The notes under the pieces: generated by a model
Seen by the model: the letters and a program-made list of their open reading frames with translations, nothing else
What the model was told of the DNA's origin: nothing
Databases searched by the model: none
Position numbers and translations under genes: made by a program
Part shown: piece after piece, positions 10,808 through 34,464 of the stretch
Layout of the letters: every line of letters starts with the position of its first letter
How positions within the stretch are numbered: the first letter of the stretch is position 1
Origin: Fibrobacterota bacterium
Lineage (GTDB): Bacteria > Fibrobacterota > Chitinivibrionia > Chitinivibrionales > FEN-1185
Length of the DNA stretch: 58,433 nt
Assembly: GCA_003165595.1 (NCBI GenBank)
Contig: PLWQ01000012.1
Location: 615,014-673,446 of the forward strand
Reading direction: 5' to 3'

Positions 10808-13267
10808 TTATTGGGGACTGAAACCGGAATACCAAACATCCGAATCTAGCGAAAGCCCGCTGCTTCCGGCTATTACCCACATCTTGTTGTCGAAAACAAG
10901 GCTGGAATGACCTCCGCGAGGAGAAAAGCCGGCAATGGCTGCAGCCTGAATCCAAGTGATGCCATCTGTTGAATACCAGACATCGCTGCTATTAACAGAT
11001 TTAGTATCCCACCCTGCGATTACCCACATCTTGTTGTCGAATACAATACTGGAATGGCCGCTGCGCGGAGAAAATCCGGCTTTGCCGATTGCCTGAGTCC
11101 ATGTCACTCCATCGGTCGAACTCCAAACATCATTCAATAGATTCCCGGAATTATCTTCCCCAGCAATTACCCACATCCTGCCGCCAAACGCAACACTGGA
11201 ATGGCCAAGGCGGGGTGAGAAATCGGCATTCGCAGTTGTCTGGACCCATGTGACGCCATCTGTTGAATACCAGACATCGCTATAACTTGTGTCGATTGTC
11301 CCATGAAAGCCGCCAATTATCCACATTCTGTTGTCGAATACAACACTCGAATGATAACTGCGTCGAGAGAATTGAGCGGCGGAGGTTGATTGGGTCCAAA
11401 TGCTACCATTTGAAGAATACCAAACGTCATTCAAAGAAGGATTCCCAGCCCCCATGCTACCACCGACCACCCACATCTTGTTGTCGAATACAATACTGGA
11501 ATGGCCGCTGCGCGGAGAAAATCCGGCTTTGCCGGTTTCCTGAGTCCATGTGACGCCATCGGCCGAACTCCAAACATCCGACTGCACACTATAACCGGTA
11601 AACGATGGGCTCCCGGCGATTACCCACATCTTGTTGTTGAACACGGCAGAAGAATGTCCGTAGCGTATGCCGAACTCTGCCGAATTCGTTGCCAACTTAA
11701 ACATGCTTACCACAGTTTTCACCGTATCCAAGACCACATTCCCATCATCATCCGTCACTCTCACCACGCAAGTATGACCCGTATCCGGCGTTCCCGGCGC
11801 AACCACAGCGGTATCAATCACGGAATCAACCCTGGCACCTGCCAAAAATTGTCCTATATTCCCCACATCCCACTCGACCTTGACAATCTTGCCATATTTT
11901 CTTGTCGCGGTGAAATGGACATGAAACGTATCGTTGACAGCAATAGTGTCCGGGGAATAAATCATCTTCACAACCGGCGCATCCTTCACAATCTCTATCC
12001 TCGCCGTGTCCTTCCACGCCGTCCCTGCCATGTCCGTCACTACGCACTCAAACCCTTTTTCCCCAAGGCTATTCCACAAATACACCAGCGAATCATTAGC
12101 CGCTTTCTTCGTCGAATCCAACGTAACGGTCCGCACCGTCTTTCCCGTAACGATATCGTTCCAAACCAGGGATTTCAGTTGTCGCGTCGGATTGCTGAGC
12201 TTCACGTTGCACCGGACCGAGTCATTGATTGACGCGCTATCCGTAAAGAACTGCTTGGCGAGATGAAAGAACGTGAACGCGAATGACGTCTTTACCTTCC
12301 CTGGCGAAGCAGCGACAATATTGACGTTTCCATACGTCGCGCCTCGCACGCTCGAACTGTTCTCTACACACACCCGATACTTGAAGTGATAATCGTTCGT
12401 ATCAGTGAATGAGAATTGCGTGGAATCCAAGCTTCGCTTGTAAACACTGTCTGCAAAGAACGTATCACTCCGCGCCGCGATCGGATTTGCCGACAAAACT
12501 ATCGAATCATACCCATCCCTGAATATCAGATAATCCTGAAAGTCCCGGTAAGAAGCCTTGTTCCATGACAGATGAACGACCCCGTTGACCGTATCATACG
12601 TCGCCGTCAATCCAGTGACCACCGGAATGCCGGTGTACAGCAGCCACAACGTATCGCCCAGCGTGTCTTTCTTCTGGCCAGCCGTTTGGATCGTCACGTA
12701 TGTCGGCGTGTAATCGGCCAGCGTGGTCACGAGCCGCAGGTTGTAGCTCCCCTTTGCAACAGGCGCAAGCGTGAACCTTCCGTTTATGTCGACATTGGAA
12801 TAAAGATCGGTGCCGAGCACTTGCACAGTCGCGGTGCGCGGATCGTGGTTCGGCTGAAGTCCGACTATGCCGGTGATTGAGCCCGGCTTCTCGAGCGTAT
12901 CCGGCCTGACAAGCACCGTGTCCGCCAATACCAGTATGGAGTCCTGGTATGCGATAAGGGAATCGTTTATTGCGAGTACCTTGGATGTGCCTCTGGCCGA
13001 ATAGGCAAACAAGTTGTACGTTCCTTTGGCCAGGGCCTTGGTGGAATAGCGGCCGCGCGCATCGGTCGTTGTCTGATAGGCAATGGTTCGTGTCGAATCC
13101 GTTGCCACGAAAAACCGGACCACTGCGCCGACAGCCGGCGTGTTGTCGGGATTGTAAATCATCGCCGTATCCGTTTCGCTTGCCGTGCCGGAGGTCTGGA
13201 CAGGTGTCTTCGTGCAAACCAGAAACATAGCTGCGCAAACGGCGGCTATCATCCATGATTTATTCAT
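10808..13267 (-). CDS. Kelch-repeat surface lipoprotein paired with a TIGR02147 regulator
   Basis: The 819-residue protein begins with a signal sequence and Cys18 in a non-canonical lipobox (FLVC). Next come two carboxypeptidase-regulatory-like beta domains (about 33-115 and 130-215), a fibronectin-like section (about 219-330), Ig/PKD-like sections (to about 525) and six kelch-type repeats. Each repeat has GHSS-VFDNKMWVIAG and DVWYSTDGVTW motifs, predicting a six-blade beta-propeller. All predicted domains are extracellular binding folds; no catalytic motif is seen. The N-terminal 330 residues are clearly related to the lipoproteins at 26671 and 32452. The ATG lies nine bases after the stop of the TIGR02147 gene, and the ribosome site (TAGGAG) includes that stop codon. 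Ligand and cellular role are unknown. Confidence 0.85.
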   Translation of the reverse strand: MNKSWMIAAVCAAMFLVCTKTPVQTSGTASETDTAMIYNPDNTPAVGAVVRFFVATDSTRTIAYQTTTDARGRYSTKALAKGTYNLFAYSARGTSKVLAINDSLIAYQDSILVLADTVLVRPDTLEKPGSITGIVGLQPNHDPRTATVQVLGTDLYSNVDINGRFTLAPVAKGSYNLRLVTTLADYTPTYVTIQTAGQKKDTLGDTLWLLYTGIPVVTGLTATYDTVNGVVHLSWNKASYRDFQDYLIFRDGYDSIVLSANPIAARSDTFFADSVYKRSLDSTQFSFTDTNDYHFKYRVCVENSSSVRGATYGNVNIVAASPGKVKTSFAFTFFHLAKQFFTDSASINDSVRCNVKLSNPTRQLKSLVWNDIVTGKTVRTVTLDSTKKAANDSLVYLWNSLGEKGFECVVTDMAGTAWKDTARIEIVKDAPVVKMIYSPDTIAVNDTFHVHFTATRKYGKIVKVEWDVGNIGQFLAGARVDSVIDTAVVAPGTPDTGHTCVVRVTDDDGNVVLDTVKTVVSMFKLATNSAEFGIRYGHSSAVFNNKMWVIAGSPSFTGYSVQSDVWSSADGVTWTQETGKAGFSPRSGHSSIVFDNKMWVVGGSMGAGNPSLNDVWYSSNGSIWTQSTSAAQFSRRSYHSSVVFDNRMWIIGGFHGTIDTSYSDVWYSTDGVTWVQTTANADFSPRLGHSSVAFGGRMWVIAGEDNSGNLLNDVWSSTDGVTWTQAIGKAGFSPRSGHSSIVFDNKMWVIAGWDTKSVNSSDVWYSTDGITWIQAAAIAGFSPRGGHSSLVFDNKMWVIAGSSGLSLDSDVWYSGFSPQ
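11023..11534 (-). repeat. 65-base exact repeat within the kelch coding region
   Basis: The bases 11023-11087 and 11470-11534 are identical, 447 bases apart, which is exactly three kelch blades. Other blades are more diverged, so this pair reflects recent duplication or gene conversion between blades. Confidence 0.85.
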
Positions 13268-13276
13268 TTTTTGCTC

Positions 13277-14107
13277 CTATTTCGACATTGGAAACAGATT
13301 CAGGTTCAGGTGAAAAACCCTTGATGCGGGCTTTTCGTCCTTGTGGACAATGGACCGGATCTCCGACTTGAACTGTTCCATGCGCTGGACTATGCGGCAG
13401 CGCGCCTCGTCCGAAAGGCTGAGCGTAAGCGTTATGGTCCGCTGCCCCAGCTCTTCTTCCGACGCAAGCACGGTCTTGCCGTGTTCAAGGCATTTCATCT
13501 GGAATTGCTTTACAAGGGCGTCCTTGATAAAATCGCCGGTGATCACGACCTTGTCGGTAGGCTTCCAAAAACCACTGCTGTTCCGCGCTACCATTCCTGT
13601 TCGTTTGAGGAGATTCATTGAATCCCGCGACTGCTTAAGCGTAATTGCGGGGTGCAGCCTGGAAGCCAGCGCCTTGTAGTCGTCCCTGAAGTCCATGATG
13701 TCCAGGAGCGCCCGGATTGCGGCATGATGCCATTCTTTGTAGTACTCGTAGGCGCCTCTGTCGACCACCCTGTGCGGCGTACTGTTGAGCCGCACGAGCT
13801 GGTCAAAGAAGAATTCTTTTTCATGCGGGCTCTTTGTCTGGTTGTAATTCACCAGCGCCCGGAAGTACTTGGCCTCGTCCGGCTTGAGTTCGAGGAGTTC
13901 GATGAACCGGTCGACAAAGGTCGACGTAATAACGGCCCTGTCCTTGATGACGTTGTTGAAGTAGCTTTTTGAATTGGTCTGGCCGAGCCGGTGGCATATG
14001 TAGGAATGGGAAAAGGCAGGGTCCCGGGATTTTCTCCCGGCGTAGTAGTCTACCAGGTATTTCTTGAAGTCTATATACTCGAAAACGACGGGCAATTGGG
14101 TTTTCAT
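13277..14107 (-). CDS. TIGR02147/DUF4423 family regulator (copy 1)
   Basis: The 276-residue protein belongs to the TIGR02147 family, known as a large paralogous set in Fibrobacter. It begins with FEYIDFKKYLVDYYAGRK, followed by a helix-turn-helix-like region (about 30-85) and the DUF4423 helical region to the end, with family words such as YEYYKEWHHAAIRALLDI. The C-terminus RVFHLNLNLFPMSK matches the ends of the copies at 25829 and 31618. A role as DNA-binding regulator of the adjacent lipoprotein gene is inferred from the fold and the invariant gene pairing. No ribosome site precedes the ATG; a -10-like box lies seven bases upstream, so the message may be leaderless. Confidence 0.88.
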   Translation of the reverse strand: MKTQLPVVFEYIDFKKYLVDYYAGRKSRDPAFSHSYICHRLGQTNSKSYFNNVIKDRAVITSTFVDRFIELLELKPDEAKYFRALVNYNQTKSPHEKEFFFDQLVRLNSTPHRVVDRGAYEYYKEWHHAAIRALLDIMDFRDDYKALASRLHPAITLKQSRDSMNLLKRTGMVARNSSGFWKPTDKVVITGDFIKDALVKQFQMKCLEHGKTVLASEEELGQRTITLTLSLSDEARCRIVQRMEQFKSEIRSIVHKDEKPASRVFHLNLNLFPMSK

Positions 14108-14114
14108 ACAGTTA

Positions 14115-14143
14115 ATAATACAAAATCAACAGCAGAATAGCAA
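14115..14143 (-). promoter_or_regulatory. Possible promoter for regulator-lipoprotein pair 1
   Basis: On the minus strand, TTGCTA (14138-14143) and TATTAT (14115-14120) are 17 bases apart. The -10 box ends only seven bases before the ATG of the TIGR02147 gene, predicting a leaderless transcript and explaining why no ribosome site is seen. Confidence 0.45.
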
Positions 14144-14200
14144 CCGGCAGCGTACTGTTTTTTATAGGACGGTGTCTGAGGGGCAGATCCGACGAAGACG

Positions 14201-14228
14201 CCGGCGGAAACAGCTTTGTTCCCGCCGG
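14201..14228 (-). terminator. Hairpin downstream of the SLOG-fold gene
   Basis: A 12-base-pair stem (one G-T pair) with an AAGC loop lies 33 bases after the stop codon of the gene at 14261-14815. The following bases contain only a weak run of T, so termination is possible rather than certain. Confidence 0.4.
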
Positions 14229-14260
14229 TCCACTTGCCGGAAGCCAATGGCGGGCTTTCG

Positions 14261-14815
14261 CTACACCGCGCCGAACGACCGTTCGAAAAGATCCTCGATG
14301 GCCTGCTTGCTCTCCTTTGTCAGTTCCCGCGTACCGAAGCCGCAGAAGGTGGCTTCAACGATCACGGGCTCGTCCTTGACCCACTGGCCGCGCCGCCAGG
14401 TGTACCAGGCGTGCCTGGCCTTATCGAATACGTGAACCGTGCGGTTGAAGAATTTCCCGAGTTCCACTCCCCAGCCGGTCCCGCCCTTCACCGTGTCGTC
14501 GTCCTGGATGGTGCCTACGGCAAAAACCTGCGATCCCTTGCTTACCATATGAAACGAGGCCTGACACACGCGGCGGATGAGTTCGGCCTTGTGGTAGCTC
14601 CGGCGCATATGCAGGGAAACAATGTCCATGCTCACGTCGCCGTGTTTGAGCTGCTCGGTCGTGAGCATTACCACGTTTCTGGCGCGTTTGATAAAGTGGC
14701 CCTTGAATGAAAAAACGACTTCCTTGACGCCCCAGCGCTCGGCGCATTCGCCGAAGAACGATTCCGCGCCGACATGACCGCCGCTGTACAGAGTGCAATT
14801 GCCTGCTTTGAGCAT
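14261..14815 (-). CDS. SLOG-fold (YpsA-related) nucleotide-binding protein
   Basis: The 184-residue protein resembles the SLOG superfamily, Rossmann-like proteins that bind nucleotide-derived ligands. Visible signatures are LYSGGHVGAESFFGECAERW near the N-terminus, KGGTGWGVELGKFFNRTVHVFD in the middle (the glycine-rich phosphate-binding turn) and FCGFGTRELTKESKQAIEDL near the C-terminus. No signal or membrane segment is present, so it is cytosolic. Related proteins occur in mobile and defence contexts and as housekeeping proteins; nothing here decides between these. A GGAAAGG ribosome site precedes the ATG. It stands alone between the TIGR02147 gene and the glycosyltransferase gene. Confidence 0.65.
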   Translation of the reverse strand: MLKAGNCTLYSGGHVGAESFFGECAERWGVKEVVFSFKGHFIKRARNVVMLTTEQLKHGDVSMDIVSLHMRRSYHKAELIRRVCQASFHMVSKGSQVFAVGTIQDDDTVKGGTGWGVELGKFFNRTVHVFDKARHAWYTWRRGQWVKDEPVIVEATFCGFGTRELTKESKQAIEDLFERSFGAV

Positions 14816-15018
14816 GGTGCATTCCTTTCCGATTCGGGATTAGTATGTCGTCACAACTTTATTGTCCGGCGAAAACGAAGGGCCTTGATTGATCCGACAG
14901 GCAGTGAAGGCAGAGGAACTGCGTTTGGCCGGGCTCAAATATAGCACATGCATGAGGTAAAGCGGGCGATGAATGTGATACAAAAGCCGCCCGCGCTTCC
15001 TCAGCCGTGAACCGGCTG

Positions 15019-16659: not shown

Positions 16660-16696
16660 TGATGATTCATCCTTAAAGCAAAAAGCCAGGAGATTC

Positions 16697-16928
16697 TTGT
16701 GGGGAAACCGATTTCGGTTTCCCCTGGGGTGCAGCTTCCTCACGCCGAAAACCGGCGTGAGGTGATCTGCACCCACACCCTTTCCAGCGGAAACGTGCGC
16801 CATGCGCAACGCTTACGCATTGCGCGCGTCACGTTTGCGCTCCGCATCCTGCTCCGCGCCCTCCGGGGCGCGGCTTGCACCGCGCCACTCTCCGGCCATC
16901 CCTGGCCTGCGATTCCGCAACGCCTTCC
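16697..16928 (-). repeat. Structured intergenic repeat B, copy 1
   Basis: This GC-rich element is the reverse-oriented relative of the one at 38811-38963. It has a terminal hairpin with 11-base arms (16701-16724), an outer stem GGGTGCAG/CTGCACCC (16727-16734 with 16767-16774) enclosing a ten-base-pair hairpin (16738-16762), and ends with a GAAGGCGTTGCGGAA-type sequence (on the minus strand). The stem bases differ from copy 2 while pairing is kept. It overlaps the upstream open frame of the glycosyltransferase gene. Confidence 0.75.
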
Positions 16929-17040: not shown

Positions 17041-17168
17041 CAACAACTCTCCGCGGGTGCCCCCCAACCGAGGGTTGCCCCTTGCCACTGCTCCATCAAG
17101 GGGTGCACCCAGGAGGGGGTAGCGAAGGACGCCGAAGGCGGCCGAAGCGAGGGGGAAACCTCCCCCAC
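17041..17168 (-). repeat. Intergenic repeat A, copy 1 (inverted)
   Basis: Read on the minus strand this starts GGGGGAGGTTTCCCCCTCGC, passes GGGTGCACCCC and ends GGGGCACCCGCGGAGAG. The same order occurs at 23050-23269 and 37608-37770. It lies just downstream of the penicillin-binding protein gene. Confidence 0.75.
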
Positions 17169-17207
17169 AAAAAAAAAGCCATTATGCTTTGACTAAATAT
17201 CAATATA

Positions 17208-19985
17208 TCAATCTTGATTCTTCGATACCGGCCCTCCTGTATCCACCTTGGGCACCACCGCCGTCTTTGTCGAATCGTTCTTCTTCTTGAACAGTGAGAA
17301 AAACTGCTGCAGTGGATTGCCGGGTTTCGGTTTCTGTACGATGCCCGCAGCGCAAGAACAGTCCATGGAATCTTTAGGCGTGGTTCGTTTCAGATAGGCC
17401 TCGTACCGAGTAAAGAACCCCTGCGGACTCTGCACGCCGGCCTTTAGCAGCAGCGCCCTGGTGAGAAACTTGTGCAGCGTTTTGCCGTCGCGCGTGCCCG
17501 TGTATTTTTCGTTGCATTCGCCGATGCACGCCACGGTGATGTCGCGAATGTCGGGCACCCCGCCTGCGCCGGGAAGCTTGGAAAGGTCGATGCGCAGCAC
17601 CGCGTTCCACACGCCGTAGTTGGTTTTCTTCCTGGTGTTCACGCGCTCGTCGAACGGCCGGATGACGTCGTCGGTGGTCCCGCTCTTGGCGAAATTCGAC
17701 GCCGTTCCCGCAAGCAGCAAAACATTCTTATCGAACGTGTCTTTCTGTTCGAGTCCGGCAGTATCGGGCGGCGCGGGAATGTCGTACATGTCGAGGGCGT
17801 CGGTCCCAACGAGTCGCTTGTGAAGGCCGAGATACGTGGGCCGCAGGTTGTTGACATCGGCAAACGGATGATACCGCTTTATGGTATCGTTCATTTGCAC
17901 CGTGTCTCCGTTGAGCACGATATTGTCGAGCACCAGCGACGGGTGATCCGCCGGCCGCTCGATGAGATCGTTGTTGTACAGCACGTTGAACAGGTGCATC
18001 TGTTCGTAGAGCGACAGCTCGAGCGTACCGAGGGCCACGGAGTACAGGCTGTCGGATATGGGCGCGCGTCGGCCGCCCGACAGGGTTGAATCCACCTCGA
18101 CGCCCACGATACGCGCAAGCTCCTTATACGCCCGGACTCCGGTTGTTGCCGTGAAATGAAGTTCGTCTTTGATCCGGTCGAATGCGCCGATGCGGTAATA
18201 GTACTGGACAAGAGGGAATGCGTCCTTGCTGACGCCGCCGTCCAGGGAAAACAGCGTCCGGTTGAGCCGGTACACGGTCTCCACGCCGAGAATGTTGTTC
18301 GAGGCGTTGAGCTGGTCGAAAATATACCGGCATCCTTCGAACTCTTCGTGGTCGTTGTGCACCTCGTACCCTCGTCCCCGCACCGCGCTATGGGCGAAGA
18401 GCACGCCCACCAACTTGCCTTTGGCATCGCGCCTGAAGGTGCGCTGCCACGGAACGTTGTCGGTAACTTCCGCGCTATCGGTCCATTTCGCGTACGGCGG
18501 AAATGTCCCGAGATCGAAATTGAGCGCGTTGAAAATCGGCTTGGCAGTGGACGAGCCGTTGGGCGTCCTGTTGCGCAGCAACCCGGACAAACGCGAACCG
18601 ATGCGGTCCCTGGAATAATATGCCAGCAGCCTTCCGTCCTTCGAATCCATAATGGCATAGGCGTAATACTGGCCGCCCACCAGAATGGGCCTGCCGCCCA
18701 TCATCACCACGGTATCGGGCCCGAAGCCCCGCGCGTTGACAAGCCGCTCGAGTTCCTTCTGCAGCGGAACGTCAAGGGAAAGCCGGATCGTAAGGTTCCC
18801 TTTCTTGCGGATAAGGGAGTTGGGGTTGACGATGTTCATCTGCTCTATCTGGGCGTCCGGCGCGCCGCTCCGTCGCAGCACCGAACACCAGTATTCGTTT
18901 GCGCAATCGACAAGCGCCCCGAAATCGGTCTGGATCTGCCGCGGCTTTTTGAAGGTCAAGTCACGGACATCGGCGAGGATCGCCCGTTGCCGCGCGGCGT
19001 TCCATCCCAGCGCCCTGCCCATGCGCGGCATGTCGAGCGCGCATTGCCGGGCGATCTTCGGTTTCACATTACGGCCCCACTTGACCATACGGGCGATGTA
19101 CACGCATTGCGCATCCGACAGGTCCTTCAGATCCTTGTCGAAGAGCGCCCGGGCGATGTCTTTACAGCCGATAAGGCCGTTGTCGCTCGTGATACAATGG
19201 TTGACATACACCTCAAGGATGTCTTCGGGCCTGTAGGCCCTGCGCAGGGCGCTGGCGAGCCGCATCTCCCTGAGTTTGCGGTCCATGGTCTTGGACACGT
19301 GCCGCTGTCCCGCTTCGTCGACGTCGGAGATGAACAGCTTGGCAACCTGCTGCGTGATGGTGGACGTGCCCCGCGGCGGACGCGGACGAAGCGACAGGAT
19401 GCTCTTGAAGACCCCGCCCACCACCGACCGGACGATGCTGCTGTATTCGACGCCGGTCGGGTTCTTCCAGAAATCCGCGTCTTCCGCGGCAACAAGCGCC
19501 TTGAGGAGCGCGGGAGGGAATTCGGAAAGCGCAGCCCGGGTGTGGTTTGTGCGGATGCGTGCAATGTCGCGCCCGGCGCGGTCGGCAATTCGTATTTCGT
19601 TTGAGTAGTTCTGGACCGCGTTGAGCCTGGCGAGGATGGACAACGACGGATAGTCGTTGACAAATACGCCGTCCACGACAAGAGCCGTGTCTCTTGCGCC
19701 GGCGGTGTCGGTCCCCAGCACGGCGCTGGCCTGGTGCTGCATGGCCTCGTCCTTGAGGACATCCTGCCACGCCGCCCCGAATTTTTTGGACAGAAGACCG
19801 CGTTTTTCCAGATTAACGAGTTTGGCGCTCCACTGGTCAAAGTACCGGTTGAAGGCAAATTGACCAACAAGATAAGCGGGGTATGCTGCAATCAGCAGGA
19901 GCGCGGCGATGCAGGCAACGGCAATGAGCAGTTTACCGATAAGCGGATTTTTGTTCTTTCGCGAAGGCTGTTTTTTCTTTGGCAT
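17208..19985 (-). CDS. Bifunctional class A penicillin-binding protein
   Basis: The 925-residue protein has one N-terminal membrane anchor (about 17-38) and a glycosyltransferase family 51 domain. That domain contains AAEDADFW, whose Glu168 is the catalytic acid, GTSTITQQVAKLF (206-218) and RKLREMRLASALRR. A transpeptidase domain follows, with the SxxK motif STAK (479-482), the SxN motif SNN (562-564) and the KSGT motif (767-770). It would polymerise and cross-link peptidoglycan in the periplasm. The transpeptidase part is divergent: GSSTAKP replaces the usual GSTFKP. The C-terminal tail is rich in Lys and Pro. The gene is divergent from the solute-binding lipoprotein gene; the repeat A copy lies after its stop. 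Confidence 0.87.
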   Translation of the reverse strand: MPKKKQPSRKNKNPLIGKLLIAVACIAALLLIAAYPAYLVGQFAFNRYFDQWSAKLVNLEKRGLLSKKFGAAWQDVLKDEAMQHQASAVLGTDTAGARDTALVVDGVFVNDYPSLSILARLNAVQNYSNEIRIADRAGRDIARIRTNHTRAALSEFPPALLKALVAAEDADFWKNPTGVEYSSIVRSVVGGVFKSILSLRPRPPRGTSTITQQVAKLFISDVDEAGQRHVSKTMDRKLREMRLASALRRAYRPEDILEVYVNHCITSDNGLIGCKDIARALFDKDLKDLSDAQCVYIARMVKWGRNVKPKIARQCALDMPRMGRALGWNAARQRAILADVRDLTFKKPRQIQTDFGALVDCANEYWCSVLRRSGAPDAQIEQMNIVNPNSLIRKKGNLTIRLSLDVPLQKELERLVNARGFGPDTVVMMGGRPILVGGQYYAYAIMDSKDGRLLAYYSRDRIGSRLSGLLRNRTPNGSSTAKPIFNALNFDLGTFPPYAKWTDSAEVTDNVPWQRTFRRDAKGKLVGVLFAHSAVRGRGYEVHNDHEEFEGCRYIFDQLNASNNILGVETVYRLNRTLFSLDGGVSKDAFPLVQYYYRIGAFDRIKDELHFTATTGVRAYKELARIVGVEVDSTLSGGRRAPISDSLYSVALGTLELSLYEQMHLFNVLYNNDLIERPADHPSLVLDNIVLNGDTVQMNDTIKRYHPFADVNNLRPTYLGLHKRLVGTDALDMYDIPAPPDTAGLEQKDTFDKNVLLLAGTASNFAKSGTTDDVIRPFDERVNTRKKTNYGVWNAVLRIDLSKLPGAGGVPDIRDITVACIGECNEKYTGTRDGKTLHKFLTRALLLKAGVQSPQGFFTRYEAYLKRTTPKDSMDCSCAAGIVQKPKPGNPLQQFFSLFKKKNDSTKTAVVPKVDTGGPVSKNQD

Positions 19986-23028: not shown

Positions 23029-23049
23029 TTCGATATTTTTATGTTTATG

Positions 23050-23269
23050 GTGGGGGAAGTTTCCCCCTCGCTTCAGACCGCGCTGCGCGCGGTCTTCCGG
23101 CGCTTTCCGCCCTTGCTGTTGGGCGGGCGCATGCCCTCCTGGGTGCACCCCAAGTGAGTTTGCTTGCAAGAAACAGGGAAGACCTCACCCCTCCCTCTCC
23201 CAGTGGGAGAGGGAGAAAATATGGAGTGAAAATTTCCTTTAAGGGCACCCGCGGAGAGCTGTTGGAGCG
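23050..23269 (+). repeat. Intergenic repeat A, copy 2
   Basis: It begins GGGGGAAGTTTCCCCCTCGC, includes AGACCGCG/CGCGGTCT arms and GGGTGCACCCC, and ends GGGCACCCGCGGAGAGC. Over about 73 bases it is identical to copy 3 (37608-37770). It carries an additional CTCCCTCTCCCA/GGGAGAGGGAG hairpin that copy 3 lacks. Confidence 0.8.
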
Positions 23270-23581: not shown

Positions 23582-25600
23582 TCAATGTCTCCTCATCTCC
23601 GCCCACGTTCTTCCTGAATCGGTGAGCGACCCGGCGCTCAGGAACGCCAGCGCCTCAGTACCCACGATGTCGCCCAGCACCACGGTCCTGCAATGCGGCG
23701 TATCGGCAAGCGGTTCGTCAACCACCGTTACCACGCCGGAAAAAACGATCCGTTGCGCCAGTTCCGGAAGGTCGAAGCCGCATTCGCATTTGTCACCTGG
23801 CGCGGCTGCGGTGCACGCTTCGAGGGACAAAGCGAGGCTGCGCGCATCGTTGCGGTAGTGTGTGAGAAGCCCTGCAAGCGGTGCAGCATGTGAGGATAGC
23901 GTCACCGTCACCGGGATGGTGAGCAACATATCCCTGCCGCCGGCCTGGACTCCGCGAATGGAAAACACCTTGATGGGTTGCGACTTTCCCTTGACTGTCG
24001 CGGGCGGCAACTCCACGGCTGCGCACAGGTGCGAGGCCGGCTCGTAGGTCTGCACCGCGGCAAACACCTGCCAGCGCGACGCAAGCGACTCGATGCGCTG
24101 GGCAAGGTTCACGTTGTCGCCGATAACCGTGTATTCCATCCTGTCTTCGCCGCCGATGTTGCCGCCCGCGAATTCGCCGGTGTTGCACCCGATGCCTATG
24201 TGGATCTGCGGCTGGCCGGCGACGGCAAGCTCGCAGCCGAACTTCCAGACCGCGGCCTGCATTTCCACGCTGGCGCGCAACGCGTTCTCCTGGGCGTTGT
24301 CGTCTGCGAACATCACGTTCCAGAACGCCATGATCATGTCGCCGCCGAATTTGTGCAGCGTGCCGCGGTTGCGCGTGATGATTTCGGTGGTAACGCGAAA
24401 ATACCGGTTGAGCAGCTCCACCACCTCGAGGGCGCCCATGGTCTCCGACAGCGCGGTAAACCCCACGATGTCGCAGAAGAACACGGTACCCCGCTTTCGC
24501 TGGCCGCCCAGGGTAAGCGGAACCGAGCCGTCGAGAACGCCTTCCACCACATCGGGCGACAGATAGCGCGACAACTGGGTACGCATCTGCGTCTCTTTTT
24601 CGACCGCCGTGTACAGCTCCGCGTTCTTGATGGCGATTGCGGCCTGTCCCGCGATGCTCGTGAGCATGGAGAGATCGTCGGTACCAAAGGCGTGCCTGCT
24701 CGACATCGTATCGACGCTGATGACCCCCAAGAGCTCCTCTTTGCACACGAACGGCGCGCACATGAGGGAGCGGATTGACAAATTGACAATAGATTGTTGC
24801 GACACAAACCGGCCGTCCTTCTGCGCGTCCGACGAGAGGATCGACTGTTTGTTGTCTACCACGGTCTTGATTATAGTGCGGCTCACCGGAAATTCACCGT
24901 CGGTCTTTGCGGCGTCGCGCGTGCGGCCGAGGGCCGGGGCGAGCTCGCCCGACGCCTTGTCTCGCAGCATGATGAACGCGCGGTCGGCATGGGGGAACAT
25001 GTCGAAGATGCTGCTCATTATCTTGTCGAGCAACGCGCCGGGCTTTTCCAGGGCGCCCAGGTCCTGCGAGACCTTGACCATGGCCTGCAAACGCCGTACT
25101 GCGTCAAGTAATCCCTGATGCGAGCCCTTTTCTTCCTCGCGCACGACGAGAGACGACAGCGAAGCATCCATGGTTGCGCTCACCGAGGGCGCGCGCGTTT
25201 CCGACGTAAGGACCATGGACATGCCAGCGAGGCGCCCTTTTTTGGCAGGATCGGCGATGGTAATGGAGGGCGCCTTGTCCTTTTTCTTTGCACCGAGCGG
25301 GTCCTGTCCTTCGGACCGGAACACCAGCCGCGCCGGCCCCACAACCACCTCGTCACCTTCGTACAGCGGCTGAGGCACGTGCCGGTGCAAGCCGCGATTG
25401 TTGACAAATGTTCCATTGGATGAGCCCAGATCCACGATAACGAAGTAGGTCTCCTTTTGACGGATCACCGCGTGCTGCCGGCTCACGCTTGAGTCGGGAA
25501 TACACAGCGAGTTCTCAGCATTGCGGCCGATAACGACCTCGGAACCAAGCCGGACCGTTTTGCCCCTACCGTCGCCTTCGATGAATTCGAGATACGCCAT
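23582..25600 (-). CDS. FHA-GAF-adenylate/guanylate cyclase (class III)
   Basis: The start at 25600 follows a GGAAG ribosome site and gives 672 residues. The N-terminal FHA domain (about 1-100) has IGRNAENSLCIP, SVSRQHAVI and DLGSSNGTFVNN, a phosphothreonine-binding fold. A GAF domain follows (about 180-335). The class III cyclase domain has FFCDIVGFTALSE and KFGGDMIMAFW, which supply the two metal-binding aspartates, and GDNVNLAQRIES. It would make a cyclic nucleotide when its sensor domains permit. A C-terminal tail of about 120 residues, rich in Cys and Ala, is not recognised. The combination suggests regulation by a Ser/Thr kinase, but none is seen nearby. No membrane segment is present. 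Confidence 0.88.
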   Translation of the reverse strand: MAYLEFIEGDGRGKTVRLGSEVVIGRNAENSLCIPDSSVSRQHAVIRQKETYFVIVDLGSSNGTFVNNRGLHRHVPQPLYEGDEVVVGPARLVFRSEGQDPLGAKKKDKAPSITIADPAKKGRLAGMSMVLTSETRAPSVSATMDASLSSLVVREEEKGSHQGLLDAVRRLQAMVKVSQDLGALEKPGALLDKIMSSIFDMFPHADRAFIMLRDKASGELAPALGRTRDAAKTDGEFPVSRTIIKTVVDNKQSILSSDAQKDGRFVSQQSIVNLSIRSLMCAPFVCKEELLGVISVDTMSSRHAFGTDDLSMLTSIAGQAAIAIKNAELYTAVEKETQMRTQLSRYLSPDVVEGVLDGSVPLTLGGQRKRGTVFFCDIVGFTALSETMGALEVVELLNRYFRVTTEIITRNRGTLHKFGGDMIMAFWNVMFADDNAQENALRASVEMQAAVWKFGCELAVAGQPQIHIGIGCNTGEFAGGNIGGEDRMEYTVIGDNVNLAQRIESLASRWQVFAAVQTYEPASHLCAAVELPPATVKGKSQPIKVFSIRGVQAGGRDMLLTIPVTVTLSSHAAPLAGLLTHYRNDARSLALSLEACTAAAPGDKCECGFDLPELAQRIVFSGVVTVVDEPLADTPHCRTVVLGDIVGTEALAFLSAGSLTDSGRTWAEMRRH

Positions 25601-25649
25601 GATGCTTCCGGAAGATGTCTGCGAACCGTGATTACGGATGGAATTATAC

Positions 25650-25678
25650 ATTATACCATTTCAGACGCGATTTGTCAG
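25650..25678 (-). promoter_or_regulatory. Promoter for the FHA-GAF-cyclase gene
   Basis: On the minus strand, CTGACA (25673-25678) and TATAAT (25650-25655) are 17 bases apart, about 45 bases upstream of the gene start. A second TATAAT lies at 25643-25648. Confidence 0.55.
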
Positions 25679-25828
25679 CGGGATAGCATGGGTGCGCCCA
25701 TGCGCCGGCCGCGGCCCGCGTTCGGGGTGCCGGTGTACTACAAAAAATGTACGATTGTGCCGGGAAGTCCAATGTATAATCATAACGTCACCAGGCAGGC
25801 ACCATCATCAAACCCCTAAGGGTGTACT

Positions 25829-26662
25829 ATGAAAACGAGGGAAAAGATCCCCAGCATCTACGCCTACAACGACTTCAGACGGTTCCTTGTCGATTACCAG
25901 TCCGCCCGGCAGAAAATCGAGCCGACATTTTCCAAGAGCCAGTTCTCCCGGTCGCTTTTGCTGCCCAACACGCGAAGCTACCTCAATGATGTTCTGCGCG
26001 GCAAAAAAGTGTCGGAGACTTTTGTGGAACGGATAATCGCTTCGGTGGGATTCGACAAGCACGAGGCGCAATTCTTCAGAACGCTCGTGCGGTTCAACCA
26101 GGCAGGCAACAGCGAAGAGCGGGAGCTGTTTTTCGAACACCTTATCGCCCTCAACCGGACCCCGAAACACATTCTTGACAAAGACATCCTCGTGTACTAC
26201 AGTAAATGGTACCACAGCGTACTGCGCGCGCTGCTGGAGATTCACCGGTTCGACGGCGACTATGCCCGTCTCGCAAAACGGCTGAGCCCCCCGATTACGC
26301 CGCGGGAGGCGAAAAAGGCCGTCGATCTCATGATCAGGCTCGGCATCGTCGCGAAGAACGCATCGGGTGTGTACAAGCCGGCCGAAAAATCAATCGCGGC
26401 GCCCGAGAACATGCGTGACGACCTTCTCCGCCAGTACCAGCTCAGGTTCCTGAGCCTTGCGCAGACGGTTCTTGCGCAGCAACCGGGCACGGTTCCCTAT
26501 TCGTCGACAAATACCGTGAGCATTTCCGAGCAAGGACTTAAGCGGCTGCTTGCCCTCACCAGAAAATTCCAGGACCAGGTACGCTCGCTCGTTCACAAAG
26601 ACGAGAACCGTGCCGCGCGGGTCTTCAATATCGGCATCGTGATTTATCCACTTTCAAAATAG
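25829..26662 (+). CDS. TIGR02147/DUF4423 family regulator (copy 2)
   Basis: This 277-residue protein is a paralogue of the ones at 13277 and 31618. It begins IPSIYAYNDFRRFLVDYQSARQ and has a helix-turn-helix-like region (about 30-80), with SQFSRSLLLPNTRSYLNDVL. The DUF4423 section contains LVYYSKWYHSVLRALLEIH, and the end is RVFNIGIVIYPLSK. A TATAAT at 25775-25780 lies about 50 bases upstream but lacks a clear -35 partner. The stop codon is part of a TAGGAG ribosome site for the lipoprotein gene, eight bases before its ATG. The same junction occurs in pair 1. A regulatory role is inferred from family and pairing. Confidence 0.88.
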   Translation: MKTREKIPSIYAYNDFRRFLVDYQSARQKIEPTFSKSQFSRSLLLPNTRSYLNDVLRGKKVSETFVERIIASVGFDKHEAQFFRTLVRFNQAGNSEERELFFEHLIALNRTPKHILDKDILVYYSKWYHSVLRALLEIHRFDGDYARLAKRLSPPITPREAKKAVDLMIRLGIVAKNASGVYKPAEKSIAAPENMRDDLLRQYQLRFLSLAQTVLAQQPGTVPYSSTNTVSISEQGLKRLLALTRKFQDQVRSLVHKDENRAARVFNIGIVIYPLSK

Positions 26663-26670
26663 GAGTTCCC

Positions 26671-28710: not shown

Positions 28711-28721
28711 GAATCATTCTT

Positions 28722-28766
28722 TTGAATGGGCTTACGGAACCCTCGCCGCTCCGCAAGCCCATTCAA
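28722..28766. other. Hairpin after pair 2 (element E, copy 1)
   Basis: A 12-base stem (TTGAATGGGCTT with AAGCCCATTCAA) extends with further pairing around a loop containing CGGAACC. It lies 12 bases after the lipoprotein stop. No T run follows, so it is not a classical terminator. The loop resembles that of the hairpin at 31117-31150 (CGGAATC, CGGCTC). Confidence 0.6.
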
Positions 28767-28967
28767 ACCGAATCCAGGCATCGTCTCAGAGGTCCTTCAC
28801 CGGAAGGTGTTTTCTGGCAGAAACCACTTTTTCCCGAAACAGCAGAAAATTGACTTACACAAGCGTATTTTGTTTCGCGTATCATCCGACAATAGCAGCC
28901 AAGCATTCGCTCATCAGCCAATGAACCAAATTCACCACTCACCAATACACTACCTAAGGAGGGAACG

Positions 28968-31085
28968 ATGAGTTCCGGTATGAAAAGAATCTCTATCGCT
29001 TTGTCCGCACTGGCAGGCATCTGCCTGTTGATGCTGTCGTCCTGTTCAAAGGACGCTCCGTTTGCCGCTCACGCAAACTCGCAGGCGTTTGCGGCCGCGT
29101 CGGGCCAGAGTCCGGTTCTCAGGATTATTTCCCCGTATAGCGGCGAGACTTTTGCCGTTGGCGACAGTGTTTTCTTTCAGGCAACAGTCGGGGATACTCT
29201 TTCTGATTCTTCCTCGGCCTGGCATGGTGCGGTTTCGTTCTATAGGAACAATGTCCTCATAGCAACCGATTCCATGCCGCCCTATGCATGCGTCTGGAAG
29301 GCATCGGCCCTCGGGCAGAACGTTCTGGTTGCAGAAGCATTTTCGGGTGGAACGGCAATCGCCAGTGACACGGTCACCGTAACCGTTCGAGACGCCTTTA
29401 TTTCCATTTCCTCGCCTTACAACGGCCAGGTGTTCCCACCGGGCGCATCCATCCAGATTCTTGCAACGCCGATCGCAACTGCCAGGCATACCGTGGCCGG
29501 CGTCGATTTCTACCGGAATGGCTCTTTTCTGGGATCAGTATGGCGCGCGCCGTACTCATATATGTGGAACAATGCGGCAAAGGGTTCCTATGTCCTGAAA
29601 GTGGTTGCTCACGACACAAAGGGCAGGCTCGACAGCGCAAAGGTAAATGTGACCGTCTTTAATGTACCACCGTCCGTTTACCTTTACAGCCCCGCAAATG
29701 GAGCCGTGTTTTTCAAGGGGGACACGGTACTGATTTCGGCATCGGCTTCCGACAGCGATGGCTCCGTTTCCAGCGTCTCGTTTTACAAAAACGGAAAGCG
29801 CCTGGGAACCGTAGCCAAACGCTCCGATTCCACGAGAACATTCAGTTTCCCGTGGTACGACACGACCCTGGGCACATTCACCCTCACGGCAAAAGCCGTT
29901 GACAACGGCGGAGACACCGGCTACTCCGATTCGGTAACCGTCACGCGCACGGACGGTTTCATCGTACTTACCGCTCCCGGCGACGGTCAGATTTTCGAGA
30001 CCGGATCCGCCATAACAGTGAGCGCGTCTGCCGTGGAGGCGAAATATCATACGGTCAAGAACGTCAAACTGTACCGGAACAACAAGCTTCTGGCCGCTTT
30101 CACCAAGGCCCCATTTCAATACATGTGGCAGAATGCCGCAAACGGCACCTACCGGATGATGGCTGTTGCTACCGACACAAAGGGCAGAGTCGACACGTCC
30201 AATGCTGCGACTGTCGTCGTCAAAGCCATGCCGCCGTCCATCTACCTCTCGGCCTCCGGCGAATCAAGCGGATCCACGGGCATTTTCCTGCAGAGCGATT
30301 CACTTGTTCTGTATCCGTACCTCCAAGACAGTACCGGCTCGGCAGTAGCATCTGTCAAATATTATGAAAACGGGAAGCTCATTGCAACAAAGACTGCTCA
30401 GCCGTTTGTGTACGCGATATCGCTCAAAACGACACCCGTCGGCACGTACTCGTTTTATGCGGTTGCGGCCACGCCAAAGGGCTCGGCAGGAACATCCAAC
30501 ACGGTCACGATAACCGTGGTTTCCAAACTGCCGCAGATTTCCCTTACGAGCCCAGCCAGCGGCTCGACGTATGCTCAAACCGACCTGATCGTTGTGAGCG
30601 CGTCGGTGAAAGACATCGACTCGGTGTCATTCGTGCGGTTTGTCATGGACTCGCAGGAGGTTCTTGCCGTCGATTCCGCGTCACCCTATTCAACCACGAT
30701 TTCGGGCCTGGCGCCCGGCTATCACTTCTTCAACGCGATTGCCGTGACAAAATCCGGTCTGTCCTTTGCAAGCGCAAGCATCTTTGTCACCGTTTCCGGA
30801 AGTCAACCGCAGGCTCCGGCGATTTCGCTCACCGGTCCGCGCGACAGCTCAACATTTCTGAGCACAGACACGATTCCGTTGCTGGCAACAGTGGCGGACA
30901 CAAGCCATTCGGTCGCACGTGTGTCTTTCTATGCCGATTCAGCGTTGCTGCGTGTGGACAGCCTGGTTCCTTATGCGTATTCGTGGATCGGGGCTGCCAA
31001 GGGCCCTCACACGCTGTGGGCCAGCGAGACGACCTTTGGCGGCAGCACTCAATCGTCACAACCGGTTCACGTTACGGTCAAGTAG
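28968..31085 (+). CDS. Lipoprotein with seven Ig-like (Big_9-type) repeats
   Basis: An AAGGAGGG ribosome site precedes the ATG. The 705-residue protein has a lipoprotein signal ending LSSC (Cys26). Seven beta-sandwich repeats of about 90-95 residues follow, each opening with a line like ISLTSPASGSTY and containing VxFYxNG and SYxWxxAxxGxYTLxAVATD. These are bacterial Ig-like domains of the kind seen in adhesins and carbohydrate-active enzymes. Only the beta domains are present, so a spacer, adhesive or scaffold role on the cell surface is most likely. It lies between regulator pairs 2 and 3 on the same strand and may belong with pair 2, although a hairpin separates them. A terminator follows. 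Confidence 0.85.
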   Translation: MSSGMKRISIALSALAGICLLMLSSCSKDAPFAAHANSQAFAAASGQSPVLRIISPYSGETFAVGDSVFFQATVGDTLSDSSSAWHGAVSFYRNNVLIATDSMPPYACVWKASALGQNVLVAEAFSGGTAIASDTVTVTVRDAFISISSPYNGQVFPPGASIQILATPIATARHTVAGVDFYRNGSFLGSVWRAPYSYMWNNAAKGSYVLKVVAHDTKGRLDSAKVNVTVFNVPPSVYLYSPANGAVFFKGDTVLISASASDSDGSVSSVSFYKNGKRLGTVAKRSDSTRTFSFPWYDTTLGTFTLTAKAVDNGGDTGYSDSVTVTRTDGFIVLTAPGDGQIFETGSAITVSASAVEAKYHTVKNVKLYRNNKLLAAFTKAPFQYMWQNAANGTYRMMAVATDTKGRVDTSNAATVVVKAMPPSIYLSASGESSGSTGIFLQSDSLVLYPYLQDSTGSAVASVKYYENGKLIATKTAQPFVYAISLKTTPVGTYSFYAVAATPKGSAGTSNTVTITVVSKLPQISLTSPASGSTYAQTDLIVVSASVKDIDSVSFVRFVMDSQEVLAVDSASPYSTTISGLAPGYHFFNAIAVTKSGLSFASASIFVTVSGSQPQAPAISLTGPRDSSTFLSTDTIPLLATVADTSHSVARVSFYADSALLRVDSLVPYAYSWIGAAKGPHTLWASETTFGGSTQSSQPVHVTVK

Positions 31086-31116
31086 TTGGCTTGCACTTCG
31101 ACATAACCTTTTTGAA

Positions 31117-31157
31117 CCCCCTTGCGGAATCACACGGCTCTGCAAGGGGGCTGTTTT
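31117..31157 (+). terminator. Rho-independent terminator after the Ig-repeat gene
   Basis: The stem CCCCCTTGC (31117-31125) pairs with GCAAGGGGG (31142-31150) and is followed by CTGTTTT. It lies 32 bases after the stop codon. Its loop resembles that of the hairpin at 28722-28766. Confidence 0.75.
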
Positions 31158-31324
31158 AGTTCGCAGGTTTCTCCCGCGCTCGTTGTGGACGGATCATGAA
31201 TCCTGCTTCGCCCTCCCTTTTCGCCGGTTCACGGACAACGATTCCGTATGGCTTTTGACTTTTCCGTCAACCAATTTCGCCATGGAATAAACGCTTTCTC
31301 GACATGAGCATTTCTGCAGCTCCC

Positions 31325-31515
31325 CTGGTGTGATGTCCCGGAAATACCTACACAAATGTCATTCCCGCGAAAGCGGGGCCGCGACTTCACCAGCATACAG
31401 CACTAATGGAGCAGAGGCTCTTGCCAATCCAGCCTTTGTTTATCACTGGATGCCCGTTTTCACGGGCATGACAGCAGCAGGATATAGGGAGGGAATTGAG
31501 GGGACATCACACCAG
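31325..31515. repeat. Nested inverted-repeat element (MITE-like)
   Basis: A perfect 15-base inverted repeat, CTGGTGTGATGTCCC (31325-31339) with GGGACATCACACCAG (31501-31515), bounds this 191-base unit. Inside it lies a second inverted repeat, TGTCATTCCCG (31357-31367) with CGGGCATGACA (31463-31473), of the type common in dispersed bacterial repeats. No protein is encoded. Confidence 0.7.
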
Positions 31516-31617
31516 ATGCCCATTATGTCGTTCCCCAAAAGGCAACCCTTCTTACACGATTCTGTTGACCATCCGTCTTTGAAGCAGTAAATTTATGGTT
31601 GAGTCAAGGAGGTTTCC

Positions 31618-32448
31618 ATGCCCGACATTTTCGCATATACCGACAGCCGCTTGTTCCTCAGGGATTACTATGACGAGCAGAAAAAGACTCATCCCTTTTT
31701 CTCCTACCAGTACTTTGCAAACAAAGCTGGGCTCAAATCAAAGACGTTTATTTACAAAGTGATCGACGGTCAGAAAGCCCTATCCCGGGCTTCGATTTTT
31801 TCCGTAGCCCAGGCGATAGGTCTCAGGAAGAAAGAAACCGACTACTTTGAAGCAATGGTACACTTCACCCAGGCAAAAACGGAGCGGGAGCGCGAGTTCT
31901 ACTTTGGACACCTGCAAGGCTTCGGTAAACATCATTCCTGCGCACAGATCCGGCAGGATCAGTTCACCTATTTTTCCAAGTGGTATTACCCGGCCCTGCG
32001 CGAAGTGCTCGCGTTTCTGGATTTCAAAAACGATTACAAAGTCCTTGCCCGAGCCCTCCACCCGCCCATCACAACGGTCCAGGCCAAAAACGCAGTTCGG
32101 CTGCTGCTCAATCTAGGTTTGATAAAATGCAATGCGGCCGGGCGGTATATGCAGACGGACAAATCCATCACAACAGGCGACATGGTTAGGTCGATCGCCG
32201 TGGCTTCCTTTCAAAAAGAGAACCTTCGCCTTGCAGCCGAGGCCATTGACCGGTTCAATCGCGAGCATCGGGACATTTCAACATTGACGGCCGGAATTTC
32301 CGCGGCAGGATTCCAGCGAATACGTGAAGAAGTTGCCGCATTCAGAAGACACCTTGCCAGCCTCATCGAAAAGGACGAACCTGCCGACCGTGTGTACCAG
32401 ATTAACTTCCAGATATTCCCCTTGTCGACATTGCCGAAGAAAGGATAA
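31618..32448 (+). CDS. TIGR02147/DUF4423 family regulator (copy 3)
   Basis: The ATG follows a strong AAGGAGG ribosome site. The 276-residue protein begins MPDIFAYTDSRLFLRDYYDEQ, has a helix-turn-helix-like region (about 30-80), and the DUF4423 section includes FTYFSKWYYPALREVLAFLD. It ends RVYQINFQIFPLSTLPKKG, slightly longer than its relatives. The lipoprotein gene starts only three bases after its stop, and the ribosome site of that gene (AAGGATAA) overlaps the stop. Sequence similarity to copies 1 and 2 is family-level throughout, so each copy probably has its own target. Confidence 0.88.
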   Translation: MPDIFAYTDSRLFLRDYYDEQKKTHPFFSYQYFANKAGLKSKTFIYKVIDGQKALSRASIFSVAQAIGLRKKETDYFEAMVHFTQAKTEREREFYFGHLQGFGKHHSCAQIRQDQFTYFSKWYYPALREVLAFLDFKNDYKVLARALHPPITTVQAKNAVRLLLNLGLIKCNAAGRYMQTDKSITTGDMVRSIAVASFQKENLRLAAEAIDRFNREHRDISTLTAGISAAGFQRIREEVAAFRRHLASLIEKDEPADRVYQINFQIFPLSTLPKKG

Positions 32449-32451
32449 CTC

Positions 32452-34464
32452 ATGTATTCCAGACTTGCCCTTGCCGCTCTCTGTCTCTGTGTTTCGTTTA
32501 TTGGCTGTGTCAAGAACATCGCCGGCGGCAGTACCGAAACAACCAACACCGCAACCCTGTACAATCCGGATCGCACCCCGGCAGCCAACGCATCGATAAA
32601 GGTATTTGCCGTGAGCGACACATCGCGGATTCCAGTGTACGAAACCACCACGGGAAGCGATGGAAAGTATAGTCTCAACGTCGGCAACGGAGTGTATAAT
32701 GTGCTTGCTGCGCGTGATACGCTTGCCGCATTTCAGGATTCGGTGATTTTCCAGACCACGTATTCCACGCTCGCCAACGACACCCTTGCGCGGGCAGTTG
32801 CACTGCAGGGGCTGCTGGTGATGCAGCCGAATCACGACCCGCGTACCGCAACGGTGCAGATACTCGGTACCGACCTTTACTCAAATGTCACAAGCAGCGG
32901 AGTATTCACAATGGCAAATCTTGCGCCCGGCAGGTACAATCTCAGATCGGTGACGACATTGCCGGATTATACGCCAACCTATACCGGGCTTACCATTCCA
33001 ACAACAGCAAAAGACACGGTGCGTGACACAATCAACATGATCTACACCGGCATCCCGGCGGTCCGATCAATCAGGGCAGACTACGACACCGTTTGGGGCA
33101 TTGTCAAGTTGACTTGGGATACAATTGACTATCCGGCATTTAATGATTTCCTGATTTACCGTGACAACGCGCCTGTGATCACTCCATCCACGATGCCGAT
33201 CGGCAATTCCGCTGATTGCAGTTATTCAGACACGATTCATGTGACCCAGGCGACTACGGTGATTTACCGGGTTGCGGTGAGGGCGAAGGATTTGAGTTAT
33301 GGGGCGACGTATGCAAATGCACAGGTAACCCTAATTCAGGGATTCAATTTTACGCCGACAAACGATACTGCCGCAATGCTGGGTGTTCCGTTTGTCCTGC
33401 ACGCAAATGTGAGCGGCTATACGGGAGCCCATGTTTCCTATGCGTGGGACATCGGGAACAAGGGAGTGTTGGTTCCGAGCGCAAATCCAGAGACGACGAT
33501 TGTGCTGCCCGACACCCTGACGCCGGACTACGAGTGCATAATAAGAGTACTGGTCGACAACAAAATGTTTGCCATTGACACGGCGAGGTTTGCCACGCGG
33601 TTCGGGTGGCAGAAGGTGGCAAATGCGTTTGCGGACTCTTCGAGCATAGGTGGCATGTGTCCCGTTCTTCTCGGCACTAAATTCATCACCTTTTGTGAAA
33701 CATATGAGCAGGTTGGCCGGAAAAATAAAATTTCCGCGTGGCAGAGTCCCGATGGACAGATGTGGTCCAAGGTAGCAGATTCTATTCCAATTCCTTCGGA
33801 TGTATATCCAAGCAATCCCGTGATCTTCAATAATCGAATATGTATGGTCGATGATTCTGGATATCTTTGGACGTCGGCGGATGCCGCTTCATGGAGCAAA
33901 GCTTCAAGCAAGCCAATATGTAACACGGTCGTTTTGTATCAAGGAGCCGCGACACCAATCCCGGGTACTTTAATGCCACCGTCGCTTTTCGTCGACGGGG
34001 CCCGCCTTCTTCTTCAACAGTACTTTTATACCTATTCGGGATCTCAAATGATACTTTCGTCAACAGATGCCGTCACATGGGACACAGCATCCAATTATCA
34101 AATGCGGGGATTCGTGATTGATTTTGCCCAGGTAGGCGATACTCTCGTAACTGCAGGAATCGATGCGTTTATGAATCTCTGGTTGGGAGTCAAGAATTCA
34201 AGCAGCGTTTCCTATTTTGACACGCCAACCTTTTCCCAATCCTATTCATCTTCCGCTTTTGGAAATACTCTTGTGCCTTGCAAGAGCAAAGTGTTTTGGC
34301 AAAGCGGTTCCAACATTACTTCTATATCCAGCCTTGCAAACCCGCGATATTATTCGTGCACCCAGGTTCCTTACCCAAATCAATCTTGCGCATCTTGTCT
34401 CATAGATGCAAGCAACAACCTGTATCTTATTTCCACTGCCGGAATTTACAAGGCCATCTTCTAA
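32452..34464 (+). CDS. Surface lipoprotein with regulatory-like beta domains and propeller-like C-terminus (pair 3)
   Basis: The 670-residue protein has a lipoprotein signal ending FIGC (Cys19). It then follows the pair 2 protein domain for domain: regulatory-like repeats with NPDRTPAANASIKVFA and QILGTDLYSNVTSSG, a fibronectin-like domain, and an Ig/PKD-like domain with YAWDIGNKGVLVPS. The C-terminal region has SPDGQMW, TSADAASW and SSTDAVTW motifs. Long stretches such as ISTAGIYKA at the end are shared with pair 2, showing recent common ancestry. The C-terminal half is visibly less GC-rich than the surrounding genes. Its role is unknown; surface binding is inferred. Confidence 0.82.
   Translation: MYSRLALAALCLCVSFIGCVKNIAGGSTETTNTATLYNPDRTPAANASIKVFAVSDTSRIPVYETTTGSDGKYSLNVGNGVYNVLAARDTLAAFQDSVIFQTTYSTLANDTLARAVALQGLLVMQPNHDPRTATVQILGTDLYSNVTSSGVFTMANLAPGRYNLRSVTTLPDYTPTYTGLTIPTTAKDTVRDTINMIYTGIPAVRSIRADYDTVWGIVKLTWDTIDYPAFNDFLIYRDNAPVITPSTMPIGNSADCSYSDTIHVTQATTVIYRVAVRAKDLSYGATYANAQVTLIQGFNFTPTNDTAAMLGVPFVLHANVSGYTGAHVSYAWDIGNKGVLVPSANPETTIVLPDTLTPDYECIIRVLVDNKMFAIDTARFATRFGWQKVANAFADSSSIGGMCPVLLGTKFITFCETYEQVGRKNKISAWQSPDGQMWSKVADSIPIPSDVYPSNPVIFNNRICMVDDSGYLWTSADAASWSKASSKPICNTVVLYQGAATPIPGTLMPPSLFVDGARLLLQQYFYTYSGSQMILSSTDAVTWDTASNYQMRGFVIDFAQVGDTLVTAGIDAFMNLWLGVKNSSSVSYFDTPTFSQSYSSSAFGNTLVPCKSKVFWQSGSNITSISSLANPRYYSCTQVPYPNQSCASCLIDASNNLYLISTAGIYKAIF

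Follow-up and report, generated by a model that had tools for sequence, protein, structure and literature searches.

In RRNPP regulators (PrgX, PlcR, Rap, ComR), the gene of a cytoplasmic HTH receptor adjoins the gene of a secreted protein that carries a matching short sequence. FlgM and LcrQ are regulators coupled to protein export, and the lipoprotein export signal of Bacteroidota is a short motif located close past the lipidated cysteine. Few paralogue families in Fibrobacterota are as large as TIGR02147/DUF4423, which is also common in Bdellovibrionota. It is catalogued as a set of paralogues with no function attached, in agreement with the sequence-only reading, and the literature looked at held no functional description of TIGR02147/DUF4423, no role for it, and no partner motif or covariation. 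DUF4423 is no more than named in a table of a Bdellovibrio proteome (PMC12546842), and the F. succinogenes lipoproteins FSU_2817, 1088, 2134 and 0627, which are named 'Carboxypeptidase regulatory-like domain', were detected and were lower on cellulose (PMC6851124).

The window, i.e. the whole stretch of 58,433 nucleotides that was analysed, belongs to a Fibrobacterota genome of 5.39 Mb and harbors three pairs formed by a TIGR02147/DUF4423 gene and a large lipoprotein gene, with the following features:

10808..13267, minus strand: partner lipoprotein of pair 1, 819 aa, with CarboxypepD_reg-like domains and a kelch C-terminus
13166..13189, minus strand: motif GTASETDT of the pair-1 partner, residues 27-34, 9 residues past the lipobox Cys
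13277..14107, minus strand: regulator of pair 1 (W1), TIGR02147/DUF4423, 276 aa; TIGR02147 at 250 bits, with a DUF4423 match
14201..14228, minus strand: candidate operator of pair 1, CCGGCGGGAACAAAGCTGTTTCCGCCGG, 94-121 nt upstream of the W1 start
25686..25703, plus strand: inverted repeat GCATGGGTGCGCCCATGC upstream of W2, weak (p~0.12 against shuffles)
25829..26662, plus strand: regulator of pair 2 (W2), TIGR02147/DUF4423, 277 aa; TIGR02147 at 229 bits
26671..28710, plus strand: partner lipoprotein of pair 2, 679 aa
26749..26772, plus strand: motif GTTDETVI of the pair-2 partner, residues 27-34
31450..31469, plus strand: inverted repeat ATGCCCGTTTTCACGGGCAT upstream of W3 (p~0.02 against shuffles)
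31618..32448, plus strand: regulator of pair 3 (W3), TIGR02147/DUF4423, 276 aa; TIGR02147 at 302 bits
32452..34464, plus strand: partner lipoprotein of pair 3, 670 aa
32524..32547, plus strand: motif GGSTETTN of the pair-3 partner, residues 25-32

The open reading frames lie exactly where the sequence-only reading had placed them, with the regulator gene 3-9 nt before the lipoprotein gene (9, 8 and 3 nt in pairs 1, 2 and 3). The regulators are full-length members of TIGR02147 (Fsuc_second) and PF14394 DUF4423, scoring 228-302 bits and above the curated cut-offs (50 bits for TIGR02147), and DUF4423 is present in W1, W2 and W3. All three partners start with a lipoprotein-type signal peptide, the Cys being at residue 18, 20 and 19, respectively. 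The same reading had also attributed a common set of domains to them, which holds in part: CarboxypepD_reg-type domains were matched in the three proteins, near or slightly below the Pfam cut-off, and kelch is strong in the pair-1 partner (five Pfam stretches and six DNA repeats of ~150 nt), whereas for pairs 2 and 3 the profiles support the fibronectin-like, Ig-like and propeller-like parts weakly or not at all, and the partners of these pairs show, besides CarboxypepD_reg, weak Pfam matches to DUF6242, SpaA and PKD alone. The W2 and W3 lipoproteins are 54% identical overall, and those of W1 and W3 41% identical across the first ~318 aa; the three are thus close paralogues, and their common domain order comes partly from common descent. 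Other components of the window are a protein that is encoded between pairs 2 and 3 (28968-31085, plus strand) and has seven Big_7 Ig-like repeats, an FHA-GAF-guanylate cyclase protein (23582-25651, minus strand) divergent from regulator 2 and having its upstream region in common with it, and a 31-nt inverted repeat, 90% complementary, whose arms (17144-17174 and 23044-23074) flank a stretch of ~5.9 kb with a Transgly gene (17208-19985).

Pairing extends to the whole genome of the window, where 25 TIGR02147 matches were found, 23 of them full-length. Every one of these 23 shares its operon with a lipoprotein partner: in 22 cases the next gene codes for a lipoprotein bearing the motif described below, and in the remaining case it is the third gene that does so. 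The pairing is far beyond chance, and this strongly supports the core idea of the sequence-only reading, that of a cassette in which a regulator of the DNA-binding type is coupled to its own surface protein. Two partners begin ~160 nt from the regulator, and the commonest start lies 4 nt inside the regulator end, such an overlap with the regulator stop (ATGA, -4) being present at 9 of 22 loci in this genome, 62 of 129 other Fibrobacterota loci and 31 of 55 in Bdellovibrionota. A profile of the lipoprotein N-terminus gave 24 strong full-length matches in the same genome, after which scores drop to generic domain matches of 30 bits or less. Conversely, 23 of the 25 lipoproteins with the N-terminal motif belong to a regulator, a count that includes the divergent partner of locus L045. 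Two lipoproteins with a pair-type N-terminus have no recognised adjoining regulator (G000 C14:58900-59196 and C16:18483-18773; L264, L269, L276, L277), and the motif of one of them is degenerate.

The family was present in 157 of the 168 Fibrobacterota genomes searched, commonly in 14 to more than 50 copies, and 45 of 59 Bdellovibrionota genomes are above the TIGR02147 cut-off. The pairing holds in most relatives. At 58 loci from relatives and Fibrobacter, which are the best-scoring matches and not a random sample, the same partner type was found at almost all loci that are not truncated by the end of a contig, the clear misses being L068 and, doubtfully, L069. By inspection, 9 of 11 regulators in the F. 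intestinalis record (a Fibrobacter-group genome) have a motif partner, and a profile search of a named set of 85 regulators recovered a partner downstream of 49 and divergent at 8. The partnerless rest of this set belongs mostly to one Fibrobacter orthologous group, several members of which have no recognised partner nearby (L131, L132, L134, L138, L141, L165, L166, L170). Loci of Bdellovibrionota (class Oligoflexia) display the same gene order with non-homologous secreted partners: 65 of the 88 regulators with room downstream have a partner with a signal peptide, around a quarter lacking one by the criteria used, and in 55 of these 65 partners the motif scores at least 9 bits. The pairing was also found in a few genomes outside both phyla.

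The feature common to the partners is a motif of ~8 residues closely following the signal peptide, GGxSETGN in Fibrobacterota and GTEVGNGG in Bdellovibrionota, and the partners of the two phyla have little else in common. Expectation-maximization (EM) gave the consensus G-[GTN]-x-[ST]-[ED]-[TV]-[GE]-N for Fibrobacterota, at a median of 8 residues past the Cys (median score 15.8 bits vs -0.4 for shuffled sequences), and G-[TGVFS]-[EDN]-[VIT]-G-[NG]-G-[G] for Bdellovibrionota (403 nats vs 186 for shuffled sequences). The shared design had been seen in the domain order of the lipoproteins, a claim that was rejected: partners elsewhere carry LamG_3/DUF2341 lectin-like domains, kelch or no known domains, those of Bdellovibrionota are unrelated, and it is the short motif behind the signal peptide that is constant. 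DUF2341 together with a LamG_3 lectin-like domain is common to five partners (L029, L032, L034, L036, L038), suggesting binding of surface glycans, and in the partners of L044 and L045 in the window's genome a variant tag, DDFPN, replaces the usual motif.

In small partners of 67-177 aa the motif is repeated, the copies inside one protein being the same variant: GTEVGNGG twice in a 71-aa partner, GGEMGNG and GAEMGNG in one of 67 aa, G[LV]VTGN[YF] four times in one of 157 aa, and GFETGHA and GTEIGHA in one of 177 aa. Codon use in the motif equals the background and repeated copies differ in codons, so the motif acts at the protein level, which rules out a DNA or RNA element such as an operator within the partner gene. 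The motif is nearly exclusive to regulator partners. In 800 kb of the window's genome away from regulators, 2 spurious loose matches were found among 70 lipoprotein-like ORFs, compared with 16 of 22 partners, and in 400 kb of one Bdellovibrionota genome none of 180 ORFs with a signal-peptide-like start reached 12 bits, two of the top four belonging to regulators. This near-absence from other exported proteins in the two genomes led us to reject a general lipoprotein sorting signal.

Variation of the motif follows the regulator. In a partial Mantel analysis of 86 non-redundant Fibrobacterota pairs, the motif correlates with the regulator given the body of the partner (r=0.377, p=0.0005), and not with the body given the regulator (r=0.009); in the window's genome alone (22 pairs) the corresponding values are r=0.422 (p=0.0005) and -0.045. 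Segments flanking the motif on either side fail to follow the regulator, among them the signal peptide (-0.004) and Cys+1..+6 (-0.087), which are nearer to the regulator gene than the motif is; the flanks are variable and make an imperfect control. Eight residue couplings between motif and regulator exceed the permuted 95% level, and none does for any of five flanking segments. These couplings point mainly to the C-terminal half of the regulator, most of them involving E129, Q179, S183, V190, Q199 and D219 (W3 numbering). A replicate with 53 Bdellovibrionota pairs again gave the best correlation for the motif (r=0.289; flanks 0.13-0.18), and the top joint couplings coincide in both phyla (motif5-F198/Q199, motif3-P125, motif7-D219/I220), the aligned register being the best of 11 tried (p=0.0025-0.005); across all positions the correlation of the coupling maps is weak (r=0.063, p=0.036). 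When distant comparisons only are retained, the motif-regulator correlation drops to 0.15-0.20, and to r=0.11 (p=0.07) in the set that excludes the window's genome. The partner bodies of W2 and W3 are 64% identical and their regulators 35%, and the motif of the W3 partner, GGSTETTN, is closer to GNGSETTN of L026 than to GTTDETVI of W2. Recombination leaving the motif with the regulator could be the source of part of the covariation. Since the motif varies with the regulator and not with the remainder of the partner protein, direct recognition of each partner by its own regulator is suggested, probably through the C-terminal half of the latter as far as the sequence couplings indicate.

An AF2 model of W3 (pLDDT 84.5, pTM 0.65) contains an XRE-like HTH (~7-90), a MarR-like winged helix (~117-186) and a C-terminal domain (~190-276). 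In structure alignments (VIA-align) of this model, the XRE/HigA-like part reached Z up to 8.6 and the MarR-like winged helix Z 7.7 (rmsd 1.9 over 63 residues); a PDB search matched only the HTH and winged-helix parts and barely probed the C-terminal part. A weak sequence match to C.BclI (E=0.055) was also obtained, and a PHROGs search of the regulators gave no match. When, in a search for docking, the regulator was modeled with AF2 as a fusion to the partner N-terminus by stop read-through, the motif had a pLDDT below 50, which speaks neither for nor against docking.

Inverted repeats are richer upstream of regulators than in shuffled or coding controls (6.3 vs 5.2). The clearest case is CGTTGTTTCTAGACAACG, which is kept before one orthologous Fibrobacter regulator in all 14 aligned species although the surrounding DNA is unalignable, and occurs as one exact site per genome; in 8 species in which the partner is not found downstream of this regulator, its gene runs divergently from the other side of the site. 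Ten loci of the Fibrobacter orthologous group retain the palindrome in the 14-species footprint even without a visible partner (e.g. L131, L132, L134, L138). The palindrome cores of pair 1 and of L039 occur once each in the window's genome. Unique conserved palindromes at some regulator promoters, which are candidate operators, fit private local control; together with the modeled anatomy, they are consistent with DNA binding. An operator common to all paralogues was considered and rejected, since no strong shared motif was found; palindromic EM scored above shuffles, yet the operators look regulator-specific. Repeated GTGTTCC boxes upstream of the regulator at L083-L092, conserved across species, constitute a different operator type.

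We propose that each pair would be a self-contained regulatory unit. The upstream gene would code for a cytoplasmic one-component regulator acting locally at its own promoter, and the downstream gene, usually overlapping it (ATGA), for an exported protein whose first residues past the signal peptide serve as recognition motif. The C-terminal half of the regulator would bind the motif of its own partner directly. As the motif lies beside the signal peptide and leaves the cytoplasm on export, its most likely use is the sensing of unexported precursor: when the partner is backed up or in excess, its motif would bind the regulator and reset transcription of the operon, in a direction that the model leaves free, and each surface protein would be matched to export capacity. 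We hold with moderate confidence that every operon is under the control of its own regulator, and that this regulator directly recognizes the N-terminal motif of its partner, most likely in the unexported precursor.

The main rival to precursor sensing is a peptide signal of the RRNPP type, in which the exported partner would be clipped and the motif peptide re-imported by the same or neighbouring cells to bind the regulator. The tiny partners of 67, 71 and 157 aa, little else than a signal peptide and a repeated motif, resemble peptide precursors and favour it, as does the gene order, since RRNPP loci likewise place the gene of an HTH receptor immediately ahead of that of its secreted ligand. 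Most partners, however, are large surface proteins with a single N-terminal motif, located beside the membrane anchor in lipoproteins, and neither a dedicated protease nor an importer adjoins the genes at the loci examined. While the repeat-bearing partners speak for the peptide, the fixed place of the motif and the overlap of the two genes are arguments for the unexported precursor, and we regard the peptide signal as unlikely, if the most serious competitor. Alternatively, the motif might be an export, anchoring or processing signal in an operon that the regulator merely controls, its covariation reflecting co-inheritance of neighbouring DNA. The motif does stand at the position of a lipoprotein sorting signal, and bodies are shuffled among cassettes, as W2 and W3 illustrate, so that physical linkage could carry the motif along. 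This explanation has to face the near-absence of the motif from other exported proteins, the presence of a lipobox in only 10 of the 55 Bdellovibrionota motif partners, the lack of covariation in the segments nearer to the regulator gene, and couplings that hit corresponding regulator residues in both phyla; we consider it improbable.

The sequence-only reading had further suggested that the cassettes switch among displayed surface proteins. Many paralogous surface proteins are indeed encoded, several of them lectin- or kelch-like, but no invertible segment or long near-identical tract was found between cassettes in the window, and the two palindromes tested in its genome each occur once, at their own regulator, so no cross-control is visible. 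Alternation of displayed proteins thus appears very improbable, and precursor sensing remains our preferred reading.

The results provide a ligand hypothesis that names residues in both regulator and motif, as well as a tag that identifies partners across phyla. If true, they would reveal a new way to match surface-protein production to export or, should the peptide reading prevail, a Gram-negative route of peptide signalling. More tentatively, the pairs might represent a new class of one-component regulators that read an N-terminal identity tag on their own exported protein, with many insulated copies per genome, each having a private operator and tag variant, so that every surface protein would report its export state to its own promoter.

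Regarding described systems, the regulators are TIGR02147/DUF4423 members by score, and the partner motif and its covariation represent an anatomy that we did not find described for this family. As with the Bacteroidota export signal, the motif is close past the Cys in lipoprotein partners; it differs from that signal in extending to proteins that are not lipoproteins and in being nearly confined to regulator partners. The likeness to RRNPP regulators consists of an XRE-type HTH at the N-terminus, a fold taken from the model, and of an adjoining gene coding for a secreted partner with a cognate motif, as known here from gene order and motif. ComR was a weak whole-chain Foldseek match to the regulator model (E 0.8). 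By contrast, the C-terminal sensor domain of the W3 model was not recognised as TPR in the PDB search, the second winged helix (117-186) being followed by an unmatched C-terminal part, the hosts are Gram-negative phyla, and the short sequence is usually N-terminal on a full-size surface protein. By analogy, the pairs may work like cytoplasmic receptors with cognate secreted ligands, with no evidence of RRNPP membership. As in the case of FlgM and LcrQ, an exported protein that is present in the cytoplasm would inform transcription of the state of export; here, that protein would act as ligand for a dedicated DNA-binding protein, carry a Sec signal peptide, and belong to a system of which a genome has 2 to more than 50 parallel copies.
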